Part shown: positions 202 to 12,016 of the stretch, piece by piece
Layout of the letters: the number at the start of each line of letters is the position of its first letter
Position numbering within the stretch: the stretch's first letter is position 1
Assembly (NCBI GenBank): GCA_026391455.1
Contig: JAPLEH010000040.1
Location: 1 to 64,000 of the forward strand
DNA: 64,000 nt
DNA from: Bacteroidota bacterium
GTDB lineage: Bacteria; Bacteroidota; Bacteroidia; Chitinophagales; Chitinophagaceae
Reading direction: 5' to 3'
The notes under the pieces: generated by a model
The model's database searches: none
Told to the model about the DNA's origin: nothing
What the model saw: only the letters and a program-made list of their open reading frames with translations
Translations under genes and position numbers: made by a program

Positions 202-1128
202 TTGGGTGTTGAAGAACCAAATCAAATCGGCGATACCTTGGGTGGCATAATGGGGCCAGTTGTTGCACTTCTAGGTGTTGGTCTAACTTTCCTGGCTTTT
301 TGGGCACAGTATGTAGCTAACCAAGAACAAAGAATTCAATTTTTTACCTCTTTGGAAAAACAGGATTCTGACAAGAAAGAGCAACAATTTGAAAGTCAAT
401 TTTTTGAAATGCTAAGATTGCATAAAGAAAATGTTGATGAAATGTCAATTGCACCTATTGGTTCTACCGATGGAGAAATAGTAACAAGGAGGCGCGTTTT
501 TGAAGTGATGACAAAAGAATTTAATGAGCTATTAGAGCATTGCTCTTTTGATTCCACCTTAAACATTGAAGAATATGAAGCTGGTTATAACATTTTCTTT
601 TGGGGTTTTAGTCATGAAGAACTCGAAAGATTATCCCCCTCTTCGCAATCATGGTTTAAACGAGATTTTCACCCAAGTATTTTAGGTGTTAATAATTATC
701 GTTTACATTCTGGATATTCTGGTCAGTTGGGACATTATTTCAGACACTTATACATGATGGTTAAATTTGTTGTTAAAAGTGAAGTGATTGATTCTTATGA
801 TCATAAGATGAAATACCTAAAGATGTTGCGAGCGCAGTTAAGTAATCATGAGCAGATAATGTTGTTTTATAACTGGCTATCTTCAGGTTATGGAGGGGAC
901 TGGGAGCATAATAAGAATCAATATTTTACAAAATATAAAATGATTCACAATTTATGGATTGGTGAATTGTTTCAAAATCAATTCATTGTGGATAAGGTTA
1001 ACGGATTAATTGATAAATACAACTTGGACCCCAAAAAGAAGCCGTTGTTTGAATTTCAACGTGACGATTTTAATAAGAAAATGAATGATATTAAACCCAA
1101 GCCTTTGAGTGATCAGAACATAAATTGA
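202..1128 (+). CDS. putAbiC-like phage abortive infection protein
   Basis: The 308-residue product has one hydrophobic segment near the N-terminus (about residues 16-36) after the motif IGDTLGG, then a basic/glutamine-rich stretch. It carries the block FFEMLRLHKENVDE (about 67-80) and, in the middle, SGYSGQLGHYFRHLYMM. This layout matches the Putative phage abortive infection protein family (putAbiC, Pfam PF16872): a membrane-anchored protein with a cytosolic helical domain. The mechanism of the family is not established. The start is a TTG; the frame stays open to a TGA at 127-129 but has no ATG upstream of 250, so the N-terminus is uncertain and could be slightly truncated. It is the first gene of the accessory island and is followed closely by another single-span membrane protein. 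Confidence 0.75.
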   Translation: MGVEEPNQIGDTLGGIMGPVVALLGVGLTFLAFWAQYVANQEQRIQFFTSLEKQDSDKKEQQFESQFFEMLRLHKENVDEMSIAPIGSTDGEIVTRRRVFEVMTKEFNELLEHCSFDSTLNIEEYEAGYNIFFWGFSHEELERLSPSSQSWFKRDFHPSILGVNNYRLHSGYSGQLGHYFRHLYMMVKFVVKSEVIDSYDHKMKYLKMLRAQLSNHEQIMLFYNWLSSGYGGDWEHNKNQYFTKYKMIHNLWIGELFQNQFIVDKVNGLIDKYNLDPKKKPLFEFQRDDFNKKMNDIKPKPLSDQNIN

Positions 1129-1835: not shown

Positions 1836-2804
1836 ATGCCTAGCCATTCACTTCCAATTTTAAAATTCTACATCGGCAATACCGACTACGACTGGTTTTC
1901 TTTCTTATCCCAACGCCAACCCGAAGATGTAAACTTCTGGCGGCCGGGAGGCAATACCAATTTTAAGGTACTATCGCCGGGGGCTCCGTTTCTGTTAAAG
2001 CTGAAAAGCCCCTATAATGCTATTGCCGGTATTGGCTTTTTTGCAAAGCATACTCTGTTGCCTGTTTCCTTTGCCTGGGATACCTTTCAGGAGCGCAATG
2101 GCTGCGAGAGTTTTGAAGCACTGTTGAAGAAGATTTCCGGCTACCGGCGAGACTGGTGGGATCAGAACCCGCAGATCGGCTGTACGGTATTATCCAACCC
2201 CATATTTTTCGCTAAAAAAGATTGGATACCCGCACCCGAAAACTGGGCAAATAGCATTGTACAGGGTAAGTCTTATATTACCGAAGAGCCTATTGGCTTG
2301 GCCATTTGGGAAAGGGTGCAACTTTTGCTGGATGACTATTTTACCATGCATACCGGAGAAGTAAAATCTACCCAGCTCATACTGGATAATAACAGCGATG
2401 CCCGTTACCGGGAAACTGTACTGTCGAAAGTACGGGTGGGGCAAGGGGCGTTCCGCTTATTGTTAACAGATGCCTATGCCAGAAGATGCGCCATTTCGGG
2501 AGAGAAAACGCTGCCCGTGCTGGAGGCGGCACATATTAAGCCCTACGCCCTTTCCGGCCCGCATCTTATCTCCAACGGGGTTTTATTACGCTCCGACCTG
2601 CACAAGCTGTTCGATACCGGCTATATCACCATCACCCAAGAGTTGAAAGTAGAGGTAAGCCGCCGAATAAAAGAAGAATTTCAGAATGGCAAAGAGTATT
2701 ATCAGTACCACGGCGCAGTATTAAAGCAATTGCCCAACCGGAATATGGACATTCCGGCTACACTGTTTACGGAATGGCATAATAGTAATGTGTTTAAGGG
2801 GTGA
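1836..2804 (+). CDS. HNH endonuclease, restriction-endonuclease-like
   Basis: The 322-residue protein has an N-terminal domain of about 190 residues (starting PSHSLPILKFYIGNTDYDW) resembling the DNA-recognition part of predicted restriction endonucleases (COG3440-like). A C-terminal HNH_2-type nuclease domain follows: RRCAISG, then AAHIKPY, then N..LLRSDLHKLFD. The His of AHIKPY, the Asn and the DLH histidine are the expected metal and catalytic positions. No methyltransferase partner is adjacent, so it may be a modification-dependent or solitary nuclease. Base composition is more GC-rich than its neighbours. It is followed 51 bp later by RNase H1. Confidence 0.8.
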   Translation: MPSHSLPILKFYIGNTDYDWFSFLSQRQPEDVNFWRPGGNTNFKVLSPGAPFLLKLKSPYNAIAGIGFFAKHTLLPVSFAWDTFQERNGCESFEALLKKISGYRRDWWDQNPQIGCTVLSNPIFFAKKDWIPAPENWANSIVQGKSYITEEPIGLAIWERVQLLLDDYFTMHTGEVKSTQLILDNNSDARYRETVLSKVRVGQGAFRLLLTDAYARRCAISGEKTLPVLEAAHIKPYALSGPHLISNGVLLRSDLHKLFDTGYITITQELKVEVSRRIKEEFQNGKEYYQYHGAVLKQLPNRNMDIPATLFTEWHNSNVFKG

Positions 2805-2855: not shown

Positions 2856-3596
2856 ATGAGCTGGGAGCAGATTCCAGAAATTGACCTTTATTCAGATGGC
2901 GGGGCAGAGCCCAACCCCGGAAAAGGTGGATTTGGTGTAATAATGGTTTATAAAGGGGCTAAGAAGGAATTCAGTCAGGGCTATCGGCTTACTACGAATA
3001 ACCGCATGGAACTGTCGGGGGTGATATATGGGTTGGAGCGATTGAAAACGAAATCGAAAGTGAATGTCTATACCGATTCCCGGTATGTGGTAGATGGCAT
3101 TGAGAAGGGCTGGGCCAAAAAATGGAAGTCGAAAAACTGGTACCGTACCCGAACACAAAAAGCCGTGAACTATGACTTGTGGGCCAAGCTGCTGGATCTT
3201 ATCGCTGCCCAGGAGGCGGTACGTTTCAATTGGATAAGGGGGCATGTGGGCCATCCCGAAAATGAACGATGCGATGAACTGGCCAATTTCGCCCTGAATG
3301 GCGATAGCCTGCTGGTGGATACTTTTTACGAAGAGACGATGAACACGGAAACAGGTGAAGAAAACACCACTACTACGCTCTTTGGAACGGAGACCACAGC
3401 CATAACAGCAGCAAATCCGAATCTTAAAATTACTAATGCGGGCGACCCCTGCCGCAAGTGTGGCACTGCCGTCATCCAGCGACCAACCAAAAAGAAAGAA
3501 CTAAAGCCGGAGCAAACATATTATTTCGAATACTTTTTTCTTTGCCCCAAATGTAAAACGGCTTATATGGTGGAGGAGGCGAAGAGGTTTTTGTAA
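2856..3596 (+). CDS. rnhA: Ribonuclease H1 with C-terminal zinc ribbon
   Basis: Residues 8-148 form an RNase HI domain that degrades the RNA strand of RNA-DNA hybrids. The four metal-binding acids are visible: D14 (YSDGG), E52 (NNRMEL), D74 (YTDSRY) and D140 (ERCDELA), with the helper histidine H130 in RGHVGHPENE. After a linker, residues 199-233 contain two CxxC pairs (C199/C202 and C230/C233), a probable zinc ribbon not present in E. coli RNase HI. The 246-residue length, against about 155 for the classical enzyme, is explained by this extension. It sits beside an HNH nuclease but is probably a housekeeping R-loop/primer-removal enzyme. Confidence 0.9.
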   Translation: MSWEQIPEIDLYSDGGAEPNPGKGGFGVIMVYKGAKKEFSQGYRLTTNNRMELSGVIYGLERLKTKSKVNVYTDSRYVVDGIEKGWAKKWKSKNWYRTRTQKAVNYDLWAKLLDLIAAQEAVRFNWIRGHVGHPENERCDELANFALNGDSLLVDTFYEETMNTETGEENTTTTLFGTETTAITAANPNLKITNAGDPCRKCGTAVIQRPTKKKELKPEQTYYFEYFFLCPKCKTAYMVEEAKRFL

Positions 3597-5985: not shown

Positions 5986-6070
5986 CCTGGGCTACTCGCC
6001 AGTCAAATCTGCACACAACCTATATTAGGTAATAATGCATCTATTCATACAATAAGGACTTTGTGGGAAA

Positions 6071-6090
6071 AATACCATGTTTTGGGTATT
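6071..6090. promoter_or_regulatory. Hairpin AATACC-N8-GGTATT, copy 2
   Basis: A perfect 6-bp stem (6071-6076 and 6085-6090) surrounds the loop ATGTTTTG, one base different from the loop of the hairpin at 5013-5036. It lies 63 bp before the exported-protein gene at 6154. Both copies precede signal-peptide-bearing genes in the same orientation. Confidence 0.55.
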
Positions 6091-6153
6091 GTATGTTCTT
6101 GCATTTTATCTATATTACCGGTTACATTAATGCCATCACTACTTATACAACTT

Positions 6154-7050
6154 ATGAAAAAGATCATTTCAATATTATTTTTTTGTAGCTGGATAAATTT
6201 GCCTGCACAAAATGAACTTCGGAATGATACTTTTCATCAAATAACAAGAACCGACACCGTATTTATTAGTAAGGAACGACCGATAGATAGTGTACTATCA
6301 AACTATCAGCAGATATTGGAGAAGACTAATAGTCAATTGGGGATGTGGTCAAATCCATATGGAATTTTAATAGGATGTCTGGGTGTTATGATCACTCTGC
6401 TTGGAATTGGGGTGGCTTTTGTAATATACAAACAAGGTAAGGATGCGAGAGATTTGATAAAGGAGTCTTTGAATAAGCATGAGGTTGAATTGGATAAATT
6501 GATTAACGAAAAGAATAACTATTTCAAAAATTTTGAGATTTCATTAAATAAGTCAATTCAGGAGTATCAGGAGAGGTTATCTCGTTCACAGAATCTTGAA
6601 AATAAGGAGCAGATTTTGGAGTTTATTTCCAAATTGGAGGAGCAAAAGGATATTATGGATTTGAAAATTCATACGCATTCCGGGTATAGCCCTCAGGATA
6701 TTGCTGAGAATTATATCATTTCTGAAAGTACTTTATTCTACACAAAAATCAACTTAAGTAACCCTAACCAGTCATTCATTATATATCTGCGAATCGTCGC
6801 TTCTGATGGGAAAAAGTATTGGTTGGGATTTGGAGGAAATATTAAAGATACACCAGGTAAAACGAAGTATGAGTACACCTCACATAGCATTTACCCAACA
6901 AAAAATCCAATGATTCAGGAAAAAGTACTGGAAACTTTCCGTTTGGGTTTTCCTGAGTTAAACTGTTATCCGATAAGAATTGATAACATTAGGCTTCGTG
7001 GCAGCGACACTGATTTGGGACAGATTACGTTCTCATATAAAATTACCTAA
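6154..7050 (+). CDS. Exported/membrane coiled-coil protein, unknown
   Basis: The ATG at 6154 gives 298 residues starting MKKIISILFFCSWINLPAQ, a plausible signal peptide. The in-frame TTG at 6061 would place a second hydrophobic stretch in front of it and is unlikely. A strong transmembrane helix follows at about residues 70-93 (GILIGCLGVMITLLGIGVAF). Then comes a long charged coiled coil (about 95-175), then a C-terminal beta-rich domain (IYLRIVASDGKKYWLGFGG). This suggests a periplasmic N-terminal stub, one span and a cytosolic coiled-coil plus globular domain. The family is not recognised. It follows the exonuclease remnant and shares its upstream hairpin with the gene at 5077. Confidence 0.6.
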   Translation: MKKIISILFFCSWINLPAQNELRNDTFHQITRTDTVFISKERPIDSVLSNYQQILEKTNSQLGMWSNPYGILIGCLGVMITLLGIGVAFVIYKQGKDARDLIKESLNKHEVELDKLINEKNNYFKNFEISLNKSIQEYQERLSRSQNLENKEQILEFISKLEEQKDIMDLKIHTHSGYSPQDIAENYIISESTLFYTKINLSNPNQSFIIYLRIVASDGKKYWLGFGGNIKDTPGKTKYEYTSHSIYPTKNPMIQEKVLETFRLGFPELNCYPIRIDNIRLRGSDTDLGQITFSYKIT

Positions 7051-7130
7051 ATCCTTTCAATTTAATTTGGGGTAACCTTACACTTACGCTATGTAGTTAT
7101 GTTAAATAAGTGAGATGTTAAACAAACGAA

Positions 7131-8906
7131 TTATTGTTGGACACTTTGTCTAATCAATTTTTCATAAATATCTACCACGCATTTTAGTAGCTTTTTGTTC
7201 TCAATGATTATTTGCAAATTTCTAAAAAATGAATATTGTCGGGTATATGTATAATATTTTTTACCGAAAGCATATAATTTATCTGTAGGACTAACTTTAT
7301 TTGTTTCGTTTATTAAATCAAAAATGAAAAAAGCAAAATTCAAAATGTAAGATCCGTCTTTATTTTTTAAATCTTTGTTTTTTATTTTTTTTGAGTGGAA
7401 GTGCCTTAGTGTTTCAATTTTTATAGAAGAAAAAAGAAACTTTTGGTCATGATTATGACTAAAGAATATCCGGTCATTGTTTTTACAATGTATTATTTCT
7501 GAAAAAGAAAGAGAGTTTATTAGGAGCCTGGAAAAGGTTATTTCCAATTCTCTTATATTATTAGTAGGGGATTTGCATAGCTTATCAATAATATAATTAC
7601 CTGCTTTGTATTTAAGACCTGATTGCTTGAAATTGATAATCTTCTCTTTATCGCCTTTCGTAGGAATTTTTAAATATACTACTTGTGGATTTAAATATGG
7701 TAGCTTGTCGTCTATTTCCTGTTTATCATTTTCAATTAAATAGGAGAGAATTAGTTTTTTTCCAAGTTTTCGGATATATGTTAGTGCTGCCAATAGTCCT
7801 TTGTCATTTTCAAGAAAATGAGCGTCATCAATTAGTATATAATCGTTTCTGAAAACATATGAAAAGAATAGATTCATCTTCTTTTCATAAGAGCATTCAC
7901 TAATAAATAAAGAAAATTCCGCAGCGTCAATGTAATTTAAAATTACATTTTTTTCTTTTGTGATCTGATTGCTTATTGCTGACAGTAGATGTGATTTTCC
8001 TGATCCGGCGGTTCCCTTAATTATAAAAGTGTTCCTTTGGGGGCTACTATTTAGGTTATGCCAAATATTAAATTCCTTAATTGCATATTCGTTATTGTCA
8101 CATTCTATTAAGTTTGAAAAATTAAAATACTTATTTGTGTCATAATAATCTTGATGATTTTTGATTTTGAAAAGACTTCGTTCCGATGAAATTTGTAGCT
8201 GTTCTTTAATAATTAGTCTTTTGCATATTTCATAAAATCCAATGAATTTAACGAGTGTTGCTTTAAGAATTGGCTTGTATTTTTTGATTTCGATATTAAA
8301 CTCATCATACATCAGATTTTTAAGATAAATGATCAAATGGTCAGCAAAGTAGTTTTCTACTAAATCGCTATTAAATTCTAAATACAATGTATCGTCTTCA
8401 AATTCTTTTGCAACAATTAGTTGCCCCCATAGTTTAATAGTTTCAGGGAAAACATTTTCTAATTTATCAAGGCACTTGCTCCAATAGTATTTAGCTTTAA
8501 TAAGGTTATTACTATGATCTGAGTTTGTTATATCTGAATCAAGTGCGAATTCTCTAATGAAATCTACCAATTGTTCTTCTAGGTAAGAATTGATTTCTAT
8601 GCAAGGCAATTTATTTTTGAAAAATGATGCTAATTTCCCAGATTCTTTATATTCTATATTGTCTTTCCATTTGAACCCAAAAAGGCATTCTTCACCTGCA
8701 GATTTTTCGATAGTTGTGTTTATGGGGTTTATTTTTGAATGTTGAAAATAAATAGGCACTATGACGAAATCTTGAATTGTTTGATTATTGTCAGTTACCT
8801 GCATAAACAGATTCTCACCGGATTTGAATATAGGTGTCACGAAGCCGGTTTCATAATCAAGGGCTTCTATGGAACCATAAAGCTTATATTTTTGATTAGG
8901 CTTCAT
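7131..8906 (-). CDS. DnaA-like AAA+ ATPase with extra N-terminal domain
   Basis: The 591-residue protein has four parts. Residues 1-135 are a novel beta-rich domain. Residues 139-212 (YYWSKCLDKLE...LWGQL...LYLEFNSDLVENYFADHL) resemble DnaA domain I. Residues about 258-470 are an AAA+ domain of DnaA/Hda type, with Walker A GTAGSGKSH (298-306), Walker B YILIDDAHFL (356-365) and the sensor-2-like stretch NNIRELEITFSRL (449-461). Residues 497-591 occupy the place of DnaA domain IV and keep some of its hydrophobic pattern, but the DHTT-type oriC-binding signature is not evident. It is therefore a DnaA relative unlikely to be the replication initiator. It overlaps the preceding gene by 11 bp, so the two are translationally coupled. 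Both are AT-rich and look horizontally acquired. Confidence 0.75.
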   Translation of the reverse strand: MKPNQKYKLYGSIEALDYETGFVTPIFKSGENLFMQVTDNNQTIQDFVIVPIYFQHSKINPINTTIEKSAGEECLFGFKWKDNIEYKESGKLASFFKNKLPCIEINSYLEEQLVDFIREFALDSDITNSDHSNNLIKAKYYWSKCLDKLENVFPETIKLWGQLIVAKEFEDDTLYLEFNSDLVENYFADHLIIYLKNLMYDEFNIEIKKYKPILKATLVKFIGFYEICKRLIIKEQLQISSERSLFKIKNHQDYYDTNKYFNFSNLIECDNNEYAIKEFNIWHNLNSSPQRNTFIIKGTAGSGKSHLLSAISNQITKEKNVILNYIDAAEFSLFISECSYEKKMNLFFSYVFRNDYILIDDAHFLENDKGLLAALTYIRKLGKKLILSYLIENDKQEIDDKLPYLNPQVVYLKIPTKGDKEKIINFKQSGLKYKAGNYIIDKLCKSPTNNIRELEITFSRLLINSLSFSEIIHCKNNDRIFFSHNHDQKFLFSSIKIETLRHFHSKKIKNKDLKNKDGSYILNFAFFIFDLINETNKVSPTDKLYAFGKKYYTYTRQYSFFRNLQIIIENKKLLKCVVDIYEKLIRQSVQQ

Positions 8907-9681
8907 TGAGATAATTTCTTTTTATCAAAAATTGTTTTGCTAAATCTAAAATTTGGGTATAGTAATAATGAGATGCAATGCCATAAGAGTTATATGGGAT
9001 AATTTCAACCTTAAGTTCCTTCACAAGTACTTCCTGGACGATTTCAGCAACACATAAATGTTTCGGCAGAATTACAGCCATCAAGGATTTTTCTGTCAAT
9101 TCCAAAGGAGCAGACATTTGAATTTCGATACTTGCTTTTCTGTCATCAACTACGCTTTTGCCTGCATCTCGGATTAATTTTGAATATGATTCTTTAGGGA
9201 AGTCCAATGGGTCATAATCCAAATGTTGAGGTATAACCCCATTGAAATAGTTAGCGTTGTTTTGGAAAAAATACCCAATCATCCTGATAATAGAATTCAG
9301 TTCAGGTTTCAAAAAAAACTGATTGATTTCCATTTTTGAGTGTAAGAAATCTGCATACAAACCGTTGGTAAACGCACCTGAATCAAATGGAATTATTCTT
9401 TTTATATTATTAATGATCCCTGGATTAATAATAAAACAAGCCGGAAGATAGGAGGTTAAATCAGAATTTTCTGTTACTGATGATCTGTATGCTGGTCTGC
9501 CATAAAACAAATACAACAACTCTTCATTTAAAAAGTCCTTGCATGTTTGTAATTGAGGGATTAATTTTTTGTGTCGAAGTATTTCGTTGAGATAGTAGGA
9601 CTCACAAGTGTGAAAGATAGGTAGCAGATCTAATCCGCTAATATTTGAATTTAGTTTATTATCGAAGTATTCGTTTGTCAA
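8896..9681 (-). CDS. Unknown partner of DnaA-like ATPase, possible ART fold
   Basis: The first gene of the minus-strand pair encodes 261 residues with no signal or membrane segment. Notable blocks are IFHTCESYYLNEIL (22-35), the striking YLFYGRPAYR (57-66), PFDSGAF (98-104) and DDRKASIEIQ (179-188). The order His, Tyr, Glu resembles the H-Y-E arrangement of some ADP-ribosyltransferase-like enzymes, such as those that act early on 'come back to the start of the chain' H-x-T motifs, but I see no decisive signature; this is a hypothesis to test by structure prediction. Its last 11 bp overlap the ATPase start, so the two proteins very probably work together. Nothing around it suggests a metabolic role. 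Confidence 0.6.
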   Translation of the reverse strand: MTNEYFDNKLNSNISGLDLLPIFHTCESYYLNEILRHKKLIPQLQTCKDFLNEELLYLFYGRPAYRSSVTENSDLTSYLPACFIINPGIINNIKRIIPFDSGAFTNGLYADFLHSKMEINQFFLKPELNSIIRMIGYFFQNNANYFNGVIPQHLDYDPLDFPKESYSKLIRDAGKSVVDDRKASIEIQMSAPLELTEKSLMAVILPKHLCVAEIVQEVLVKELKVEIIPYNSYGIASHYYYTQILDLAKQFLIKRNYLNEA

Positions 9682-10177
9682 TACACTTGATAATTTTACA
9701 CAATTTAAATTATCCGATTAGCAATGCAAAATATCTTTTTGAATACATGTTGCACTCCTGGTTTTAGTGTATAGGAGTAAAGTATTGTCAATCAGCTTTT
9801 TCTGTTGCAAAGTTTTAACTTATCGGCAATTCGTTAGTTAAGAATTACGGTTTCCCATATATTATTTCTCATTAATTCTCTGCTCACACAACACCAACAT
9901 TGGCACTTTTTTCATCCAAATCCTACATACTTTCATTACTAAGGTCAAACCCCTAACGAGTTAAATTTCGTTTCCTAAAACTTGTTGAATTCAAAATCAC
10001 CTTGTATGTTTGAAACATCCGTCATATAAATGATACGGATCATCTCAACAATCTAACCGAACACTTCCTGCTTCGGTTTCTATTTCTCCAAAGAAATACT
10101 TATAGCTGCAAGCATAAGATGGGCATTCCTAATCGGGGTGTTTGTCCAACATAATGTATTTAAAAATTAAAAAAGCG
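9682..10177. other. Divergent intergenic region, AT-rich
   Basis: This 496-bp gap separates the leftward DnaA-like pair from the rightward modular secreted protein and must hold promoters for both. No convincing TAnnTTTG element was found. A 7-bp inverted repeat AACCGAA/TTCGGTT with a 10-base loop lies at 10055-10078; it has no T-run. No gene can be supported here. Confidence 0.35.
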
Positions 10178-12016
10178 ATGCACCTTAAGTACAGGAATTA
10201 TTGGTTAGTAAGTATAGTAATCTTGATCGGGTATGCAGCCTGCCGCAAGGCAGATGCGCCGCTTACGCAGGAGCGGGGGCAATCGGCCATTACCCGGTTT
10301 TTTTATGAGCGGGCACCGGCTACACCATTGGTGCAATCCATTCGCGATTACGCCATCCGGGAGCAGGCCAAGGCACCGTTTGCAGAAGCGCTCATCCGCC
10401 AGATCGGCTATCCGCAATGGAATAAGGCCCTTACGATAGCCGGTGCTTCGCCATCGCGGTCGGGGCGGGGAGCTGAAGATTCGGTGCATATTACCTACGT
10501 ACCTTTTGTGAGGGATAGTCAGCAGCACGTGAATGCCACCCTGGCGGTAGCCACATCCCCGGGAGATACCTCGCTCCGCATCTTCTGCGACTGGCAATAT
10601 GCCGATACCACGGCCACCGGCCTCAGCAAGGCGCAATTTGCCCTTACTATGATGGCGCTAGATGAAGCCGTATTTGGCAACCGCCTCTACCAGCTTACGG
10701 ATACCACGATTTTCCACCACCGGTCGCGCTATATACGGCCGCATGCACCGGGTAGTGGTGCAACCAAATCATTGGCCACCGCTTCCTCCTCATTGCTATC
10801 CTGGTTGTATACCACTACCATTTGCTGGACAGAATATGTACCCCTGTACCAAGGCCAGGTGGTGGGCTGTGATCCTGAGACAGATTGTCCATTCTATACC
10901 GCAGTGCAAGCCTGTATCGAAATCATCTGGAGCAGCAGCGGTGGCGGTGGTGGCGGAGGAACTTCGGGCCCTATTGGCGGCACGGGAGGCGGAGGAGGCT
11001 CCGGCAGTGGCGGCGGATGGGTACCCCCCAATAATCCGAACCCCTGCGGCGGCGTAGCTTCGCTCATAGAAACACAGGTAGGCTGTGGTGTGGGCTGGGT
11101 GCCTGTGGGAGGGGGAGGAGGGGCTTACAATCCCTATGCCGGAGCTGCCATTTTCAATAACTCAGAAGTTTCTGTACGTGATAACAATAAGATTAATTAT
11201 TGGAAAACAAATAACCTGGATACATTGGGGTTAGATAGCTGCAGGATGCAACTGCTCAATAAACTTATCAATACTTTGGGACAAAGTCCAATTGGAGTTT
11301 TCTTATCAAAGCTTGATAATGCGATTGGAATACCTAATACAATTGACAAATTCAAAATTCATTTCTTAACTCGGCCAATGATTAACTACGATGCTATTAC
11401 TGAACATGCTATTTATGATGAAATTTCAAAGGAATTTGAAGTCGATATTGTGCTTGATTCCACAAGGGCAAAAACGGCTACTGATATTTTTATAGTAAAT
11501 ACATTATTTCATGAAATAGTACATGCATATATGACATTCATTTGGAAGAAGTTAAATCAAGGGGCCACACAACAGCAAATGGATAGCCTGAAATATGACC
11601 AGATATTTAATGCTTATGTAGATACGCTTCGTATTCGGGACTCCCTTAACCCACAATTAGCCATATTGCAAATGGAATCAATTCAACACAATTATATGGC
11701 AGATCGGCTTATTGAATATATAGCGAATACGGTCAAGATTTATGACAATAAGCCGTCGACAAATGATAGTTATTATTGGTATTTGGCATGGGCTGGACTT
11801 ACCCGAAAACAGGTGAGGACATGGAAGTCACTTTGGCCTAATTTCCCTTCCTGGCCTCCAACGAACCCTGCTACATCTGAAGCTGACAAAAGAGGATTAA
11901 AATATGCCCTGACACTATCCCGGATTGATTCAATTTATAACGTAGTATTGGAAAATGAATCAAAAGGATTACCAGGTGCTAAGGGTAGAAAACCAGTAGT
12001 TGGAGGTTGTTATTAA
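10178..12016 (+). CDS. Modular secreted protein with HExxH C-terminal domain
   Basis: About 612 residues from the ATG at 10178; ATG 10154 and TTG 10142 are alternatives. The N-terminus is a lipoprotein-like signal (VSIVILIGYAACRK). The first ~320 residues are GC-rich and include a long glycine-rich linker (10937-11022) with WVPPNNPNPCGG and a second Gly-rich patch, a pattern seen in large Chitinophagaceae secreted-protein families. From about 11150 the DNA becomes AT-rich and the protein changes character: this C-terminal part has the zinc-protease motif HEIVH (11510-11524) with SMESIQHNYMADRLIEY downstream. The abrupt change suggests that a new C-terminal domain was joined to a conserved carrier, as in polymorphic effectors. 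Two small exported proteins follow closely and could be partners or inhibitors (inference). Confidence 0.65.
   Translation: MHLKYRNYWLVSIVILIGYAACRKADAPLTQERGQSAITRFFYERAPATPLVQSIRDYAIREQAKAPFAEALIRQIGYPQWNKALTIAGASPSRSGRGAEDSVHITYVPFVRDSQQHVNATLAVATSPGDTSLRIFCDWQYADTTATGLSKAQFALTMMALDEAVFGNRLYQLTDTTIFHHRSRYIRPHAPGSGATKSLATASSSLLSWLYTTTICWTEYVPLYQGQVVGCDPETDCPFYTAVQACIEIIWSSSGGGGGGGTSGPIGGTGGGGGSGSGGGWVPPNNPNPCGGVASLIETQVGCGVGWVPVGGGGGAYNPYAGAAIFNNSEVSVRDNNKINYWKTNNLDTLGLDSCRMQLLNKLINTLGQSPIGVFLSKLDNAIGIPNTIDKFKIHFLTRPMINYDAITEHAIYDEISKEFEVDIVLDSTRAKTATDIFIVNTLFHEIVHAYMTFIWKKLNQGATQQQMDSLKYDQIFNAYVDTLRIRDSLNPQLAILQMESIQHNYMADRLIEYIANTVKIYDNKPSTNDSYYWYLAWAGLTRKQVRTWKSLWPNFPSWPPTNPATSEADKRGLKYALTLSRIDSIYNVVLENESKGLPGAKGRKPVVGGCY

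Follow-up and report, generated by a model that had tools for sequence, protein, structure and literature searches.

A two-gene bacterial module that pairs a putative effector with exchangeable host-protein copies, probably an integrated-decoy immune system

The 64,000-nucleotide stretch of DNA analyzed here (the window; positions 1-64,000 of contig JAPLEH010000040.1, assembly GCA_026391455.1, from a Bacteroidota bacterium of the Chitinophagaceae) carries two overlapping genes that, judging from their sequences and those of their relatives, probably form a bacterial integrated-decoy immune module. Gene 1 encodes a putative effector, and gene 2 encodes a family-specific N-terminal domain (N-domain) fused to a C-terminal part, or tail, which resembles DnaA in the window. 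The N-domain would act as an adaptor and the tail as a bait, i.e., a likeness of some host protein or other defence enzyme which phages could be expected to target. Gene 1, the conserved component that we infer to be the effector, would be kept silent via gene 2; a phage protein that binds, modifies or destroys the bait would release or activate it, and active gene 1 would stop the infection, probably through harm to the cell. Phage proteins as the trigger and control of gene 1 through the N-domain are presumed here, and the features that can be read directly from the sequences are that the pair is conserved, that its gene 2 proteins have the N-domain in common, that their C-terminal parts are exchanged and that several tails have lost active-site residues. 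The module consists of the following parts:

8896-9681, minus strand: gene 1, putative effector of 261 residues (open reading frame with a TTG start; member of a homologue family with conserved residues)
7131-8906, minus strand: gene 2, N-domain (putative adaptor) plus DnaA-like putative bait, 591 residues (open reading frame with an ATG start)
8445-8897, minus strand: N-domain of gene 2 (profile positions 2-153 of 155, E 5.9e-29)
8262-8483, minus strand: region resembling DnaA domain I, from residue 142 to roughly 215 with an approximate lower border (start of the TIGR00362 match; alignment with native DnaA)
7512-8135, minus strand: AAA+ core of the DnaA type, residues 258 to about 465 (PF00308 match at 258-376; alignment with native DnaA; motif positions)
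7983-8015, minus strand: Walker A motif within the AAA+ core (motif position)
7134-7439, minus strand: C-terminal part of gene 2 at the place of DnaA domain IV (alignment with native DnaA; no Bac_DnaA_C match listed)

Both reading frames and their 11-bp overlap (8896-8906), which a preliminary description of this DNA had reported, were recovered on the minus strand, with gene 1 being transcribed first. A single-protein search with gene 1 in 395 genomes of the window's phylum returned only gene 1 itself, and the same kind of search in viral contigs and in phages gave no match. The first homologues outside the window came from 12 plasmids, of which 10 were alphaproteobacterial and 2 betaproteobacterial, and showed 25-31% identity. 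Ten plasmid records were examined; 6 were annotated at this place, with a "hypothetical protein" of 303-902 residues directly behind the gene 1 homologue, 3 were unannotated at the match and 1 was degenerate. When 84,980 species genomes were scanned, 98 gene 1 relatives were detected in 168 candidate stretches, with the best 80 being kept; judging by their record titles, these were mostly from Alphaproteobacteria, but also from Bacteroidota, Verrucomicrobia, Acidobacteria, Clostridia and others. Another scan of viral contigs added 3 further gene 1 loci. On one viral contig, the reading frames behind the module (L012:11202-12094) were read by eye as a holin-type membrane protein and a lysozyme, and this copy may ride on a prophage.

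Analysis of these loci showed that the N-domain is a family-wide domain of about 150 residues common to the gene 2 proteins. The preliminary description had proposed a new N-terminal domain of about 135 residues; the distinct domain is present, but it is somewhat larger and not particular to the window. Using a hidden Markov model (HMM) search, the N-domain was found directly downstream of gene 1 in 83 of 93 loci (L002-L094). In three of the others (L003, L009 and L088), the N-terminus of the downstream gene aligns by eye with the N-domain, three (L042, L084 and L093) stop at contig ends, one (L010) is degenerate, and no gene 2 was found at the gene 1 locus of L027, L044 and L055. The N-domain profile (155 positions, 53 rows) includes the window sequence, and the HMMs for gene 1 and for the N-terminal part of gene 2 were both built partly from the tested loci. 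A less circular test was provided by the N-domain profile alone, which had 7 hits in 385 alphaproteobacterial genomes, all 7 beside gene 1 (2 of them, L023 and L054, were already in the locus set). The two genes overlap in 71 of 81 pairs and lie within 20 bp of each other in 8 more, according to first-start calls that exaggerate some overlaps. The pairing described initially is thus conserved across genomes. A search of PDB sequences with the N-domain gave nothing significant (best E 0.24).

Behind this shared N-domain, the 83 gene 2 proteins carry 34 clusters of tails. The C-terminal parts of at least 21 of the 83 could be identified, and the position that is taken by DnaA in the window is occupied in relatives by S9, FtsZ, IF2 (a single domain only), peroxiredoxin, RelA/SpoT, HsdR, a DrmD-like helicase, PglX, Csp and GcrA. 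The recognised tails are largely central host or defence proteins. Native counterparts were present in 3 of 3 genomes searched that carry DnaA tails, in 2 of 3 genomes for S9 (no separate S9 was found in the L077 genome, which may be incomplete) and in 1 of 1 genome each for peroxiredoxin, FtsZ, RelA/SpoT and IF2. The S9 tails of L075 and L076 are whole S9 domains sharing 81% and 73% identity, respectively, with the native S9 from the same genome; ratios of non-synonymous to synonymous change among the S9 fusions were uninformative, since synonymous change (dS) is saturated.

Frequent recent swapping of tails was considered and rejected. The 34 clusters need 33 changes on the gene 1 tree, which is the minimum for 34 states, suggesting that each tail cluster arose about once and was then inherited. 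When the DnaA tails are pooled, uptake occurred at least twice (once for the window and L047, once for L023). The largest C-terminal class comprises 28 proteins, and one of its subgroups (L028:9227-10573 and seven similar tails, alignment A10) has a weak PDB match to FtsZ (E 1.2e-4). Comparison with a small set did not confirm an FtsZ identity for this subgroup (E 0.033 for one native FtsZ), which is left as a lead. Two other subgroups of this class had no PDB match, and a PDB search with an all-helical tail class (A11) gave nothing. Two further tails were noted: the cold-shock tail of L066 (1902-2615) matches the effector model of retron Se72 at 34.8 bits, below the cut-off of 82, and in L147 (1600-3783) the N-domain is fused to part of the BREX-2 protein PglX in a frame that ends at profile position 411 of 1185 and may have been cut short.

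Several of the tails appear to be disarmed, in that they have changes at residues that we take to be catalytic in the native proteins. The peroxiredoxin tail of L033 is 85% identical to the genome's own copy and has LVSTTE in place of PVCTTE, losing the peroxidatic cysteine. The RelA/SpoT tail of L054, which is 34% identical to the native protein, has HDSLDT in place of HDTVED, and its NGYRS and EIQIR stretches are replaced. In the FtsZ tail of L078 (71% identical to native), GVGGGGGN has become GVGEGGGN. The DnaA tail of L047 keeps Walker A and B, while the arginine finger, the DnaA-box motif and the sensor-2 arginine are missing. In L056 (8764-10029), the tail behind the N-domain is a copy of gene 1 itself (i-E 1.4e-34), apparently a pseudo-effector: H24 is replaced by Y and Y57 by H, D179 and R181 are lost, and D100, G102 and E186 are kept.

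Such changes are also seen in Magnetospirillum aberrantis (L023), where the module is flanked by dnaA (locus positions 6512-7909) on one side and by dnaN on the other, with recF and gyrB next in order; dnaN, recF and gyrB were named by reading the sequence. The fused and native DnaA are identical at 384 of 461 aligned positions (83%, with 26 gap positions), with a dN of 0.078 and a dS of 0.286. The Walker A motif GLGKT has become GLSKT (G175S), and GGRDHTTV has become GGRAPTTV. This DH to AP change accounts for 2 of the 3 residue changes in the last 125 codons, and identity to native across the C-terminal DnaA codons is 96-98%. Two of three changes falling in 5 base-contact residues gives p of about 0.004, a hand calculation on a set of residues that was chosen post hoc. 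Protein-wide, 10 of the 137 positions that are invariant in three native DnaAs are substituted (M1V included), in addition to one gap, and enrichment of disabling changes in this tail is therefore not claimed. The pair is here inserted into the dnaA-dnaN-recF-gyrB cluster (L023:6512-13007), adjoining the gene that its bait resembles.

Gene 2 of the window is very probably a DnaA derivative without initiator function. It matches the Pfam family Bac_DnaA (PF00308) at 47 bits (cut-off 23, residues 258-376) and the NCBIfam model TIGR00362 for DnaA over residues 142-516 (profile positions 1-369 of 437), and the extents of these matches place both a domain-I-like region and an AAA+ core in the protein. 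The TIGR00362 score (81.3 bits) is far below the DnaA equivalog cut-off of 343.9, and the score against the Hda model TIGR03420 is 34.8 bits (cut-off 194.8). The matches to PADLOC 2023 are weak P-loop matches, the best being Avs2 at 21.2 bits. No match was listed for the first approximately 140 residues in the Pfam, PADLOC and NCBIfam scans, and no Bac_DnaA_C (domain IV) match was listed in the Pfam scan. Walker A (GTAGSGKSHLL) begins at residue 298, followed by LIDDAHF at 358 and NNIRELE at 449. Alignment with native DnaAs showed that both Walker motifs and the NNIRELE sensor 2 are kept, that the box VII arginine finger is lost (RLLSRF replaced by KLPYL with a gap), and that the DnaA-box motif GGRDHTT is missing, GKKYYTYT being aligned at that place. 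These results bear out the preliminary description as to the DnaA-like domain I, the AAA+ core with NNIRELE, a domain IV position without an oriC-binding signature, and a very probable loss of initiator function in a defence-type setting. Since the host has a separate DnaA (L100), only about 20% identical to gene 2 over 354 residues, gene 2 is not the housekeeping DnaA, and it stands apart from Hda as well. It resembles DnaA and Hda in its DnaA-type domain-I-like and AAA+ regions and differs from them in its extra N-domain, its sub-cut-off scores and the two missing motifs. As a putative bait, it keeps the domain-I-like region and the ATP-binding core but has neither arginine finger nor DnaA-box-binding motif, so that it might reveal phage proteins that target DnaA while having no initiator activity of its own. 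An excerpt of one paper (PMC5448010) describes YfdR, a cryptic-prophage protein, as binding DnaA domain I.

In an alignment of 84 gene 1 homologues (window included), H24, F59, D100, G102, D179, R181 and E186 do not vary, and conservation of Y57 is 90% or higher; gene 1 of the window agrees with the family at each of the 18 positions that are invariant or nearly so. H24, Y57, D100, D179, R181 and E186 are thus candidate active-site residues. The HTC, YLFYGRPAYR and SIEIQ blocks, which had been noted previously in H-Y-E order, are present as H24, Y57 and E186, and their conservation argues that they are not due to chance; an H-Y-E active site is a candidate reading. The catalytic blocks of H-Y-E ADP-ribosyltransferases (ARTs) occur in the same order, and locally the gene 1 and DarT profiles match best at the E block of gene 1. 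In the profile comparison with DarT-type ARTs, however, hhalign gave a probability of 0.2% with 2 and with 11 DarT sequences. Gene 1 of the window had no match in Pfam, PADLOC, NCBIfam or PDB sequences (nothing significant in PDB, best E 0.8), and none of the 84 members matched a PADLOC 2023 model. The DarT/ART-like nature suggested for this protein was not confirmed and is left as a motif-level lead. As far as searched, neither of the two gene families has a Pfam, NCBIfam or PADLOC model of its own.

An integrated decoy would account for a constant gene 1 and N-domain beside an exchangeable tail, for the disabled state of enzyme tails and for the many host hubs and defence enzymes among the recognised tails. 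It would also explain the dead gene 1 tail of L056, as gene 1 is the part that a phage would need to inhibit. Several observations weigh against it. An identity could not be assigned to 62 of the 83 tails, and the catalytic residues of the native proteins were presumed from general knowledge of their families. The system is rare: the N-domain profile hit a single genome out of 395 in the window's phylum, with the window as the hit, and a single one out of 391 in the clostridial class of L076, with that locus as the hit. L070, the sister of L047 on the gene 1 tree and close to the window, has a different tail, and the DarT comparison of gene 1 was null. Moreover, not every tail is disarmed: the HsdR and DrmD-like helicase tails keep their ATP-binding motifs, PglX keeps its methyltransferase motifs as read, and nothing disabled was seen in the S9, Csp and GcrA tails. 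Loss of Walker A had been considered for HsdR (L036) and an SNF2 protein (L069) and is ruled out by HTQGSGKS and DEVGLGKT in their sequences.

These intact tails could instead indicate delivery, with the C-terminal part docking gene 2 and gene 1 onto a host machine (the ribosome, the Z-ring, the replication origin or a restriction complex) where gene 1 acts. The S9, Csp, GcrA, HsdR and DrmD-like tails seem capable of engaging their usual partners, the S9 domain being whole with its SKR tail and the ATP motifs of HsdR and the helicase being intact. However, the DnaA tail of L023, without the Walker A glycine and the DNA-recognition residues, should assemble less well on oriC, the peroxiredoxin tail has lost just the catalytic cysteine region, a loss that delivery does not require, and the IF2 tail is one domain. 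Taking both sides into consideration, we regard delivery as unlikely. The constant pairing of one enzyme with a host-protein copy could also mean that gene 1 modifies the host protein named by the tail and that the tail of gene 2 absorbs the hits as a sacrificial substrate or antidote. Toxin-antitoxin pairs have a gene layout like that of this pair. However, a single conserved active site would then have to recognise S9, FtsZ, DnaA, IF2 and HsdR alike, and the tail of L056 is a dead copy of gene 1, making this explanation quite improbable.

The preliminary description had suggested that a DnaA derivative paired with a possible effector could sense replication or foreign origins. While the window copy keeps the ATP-binding motifs and the domain-I-like region, the DnaA-box motif and arginine finger are missing and relatives, including L070 near the window, carry non-DnaA tails in the same place, which suggests that DnaA is one interchangeable bait and leaves the sensing of replication or foreign origins a very improbable role. 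That the tails are captured fragments without function in decaying gene fusions would fit their great diversity, the lost active-site residues and the early stop within PglX in L147, but is the least probable explanation given the long open frames, the lower non-synonymous than synonymous change in L023, the whole S9 domains close to host S9 in two genomes and the largely central host or defence nature of the recognised tails.

Among known systems, the closest kind to an integrated-decoy reading of the pair are the plant NLR receptors with integrated decoys, in which, according to an excerpt of PMC5067614, a conserved receptor carries exchangeable domains derived from likely pathogen targets. 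The same arrangement is found here, with a constant N-domain and 34 kinds of added tail in 83 proteins, and for the six tail kinds searched the added domains resemble separate host proteins of the same genome. As far as that excerpt goes, the bacterial pair differs in having neither NB-ARC nor LRR and in consisting of two small genes, with tails of up to nearly full-length host proteins whose active sites appear to have been removed, and its trigger is a proposed one. Bacterial guard and decoy systems treated in part of a 2025 review (PMC12409349), i.e., PrrC/EcoprrI, PARIS, Ronin, RecBCD-guarding retrons and Panoptes, are, as proposed for the present pair, indirect sensors of phage proteins for counter-defence or take-over, and respond with a toxin-like effector. 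In that part of the review, each has a fixed sensor or a decoy small molecule, and no system is described in which disabled host-protein copies are exchanged on one adaptor. A literature search over titles and the beginnings of abstracts, covering top matches and not bioRxiv, found no such bacterial system, and an earlier description is possible. If the integrated-decoy reading is true, the principle of plant immunity by which a copy of a pathogen target is fused to an alarm extends to bacteria, and the baits would indicate possible phage targets, such as GcrA in Alphaproteobacteria and S9 in Clostridia, in lineages whose phage biology is little known. The exchangeable bait slot would moreover suggest a programmable sensor.

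The module lies in an AT-rich part of the window, with a GC content of 31% at 6001-10000 vs. 43-49% over most of the remaining window, which has other low patches. A scan of positions 6800-10300 found no repeat clearly marking an insertion. The GC profile and the Pfam matches agree with the AT-rich island and the defence-type neighbours reported initially, which lie outside the module:

202-1128, plus strand: putAbiC gene (PF16872, 69.5 bits)
1836-2804, plus strand: HNH nuclease gene, HNH_2 (PF13391, 45 bits)

On the other side of the module, positions 10142-12016 encode a 624-residue protein with glycine-rich stretches and a sub-cut-off SprT-like match (16.5 vs. 25.6 bits). Between the HNH gene and the AT-rich stretch, an RNase H gene (2856-3596, 132 bits) encodes a protein with CxxC motifs in its C-terminal part.
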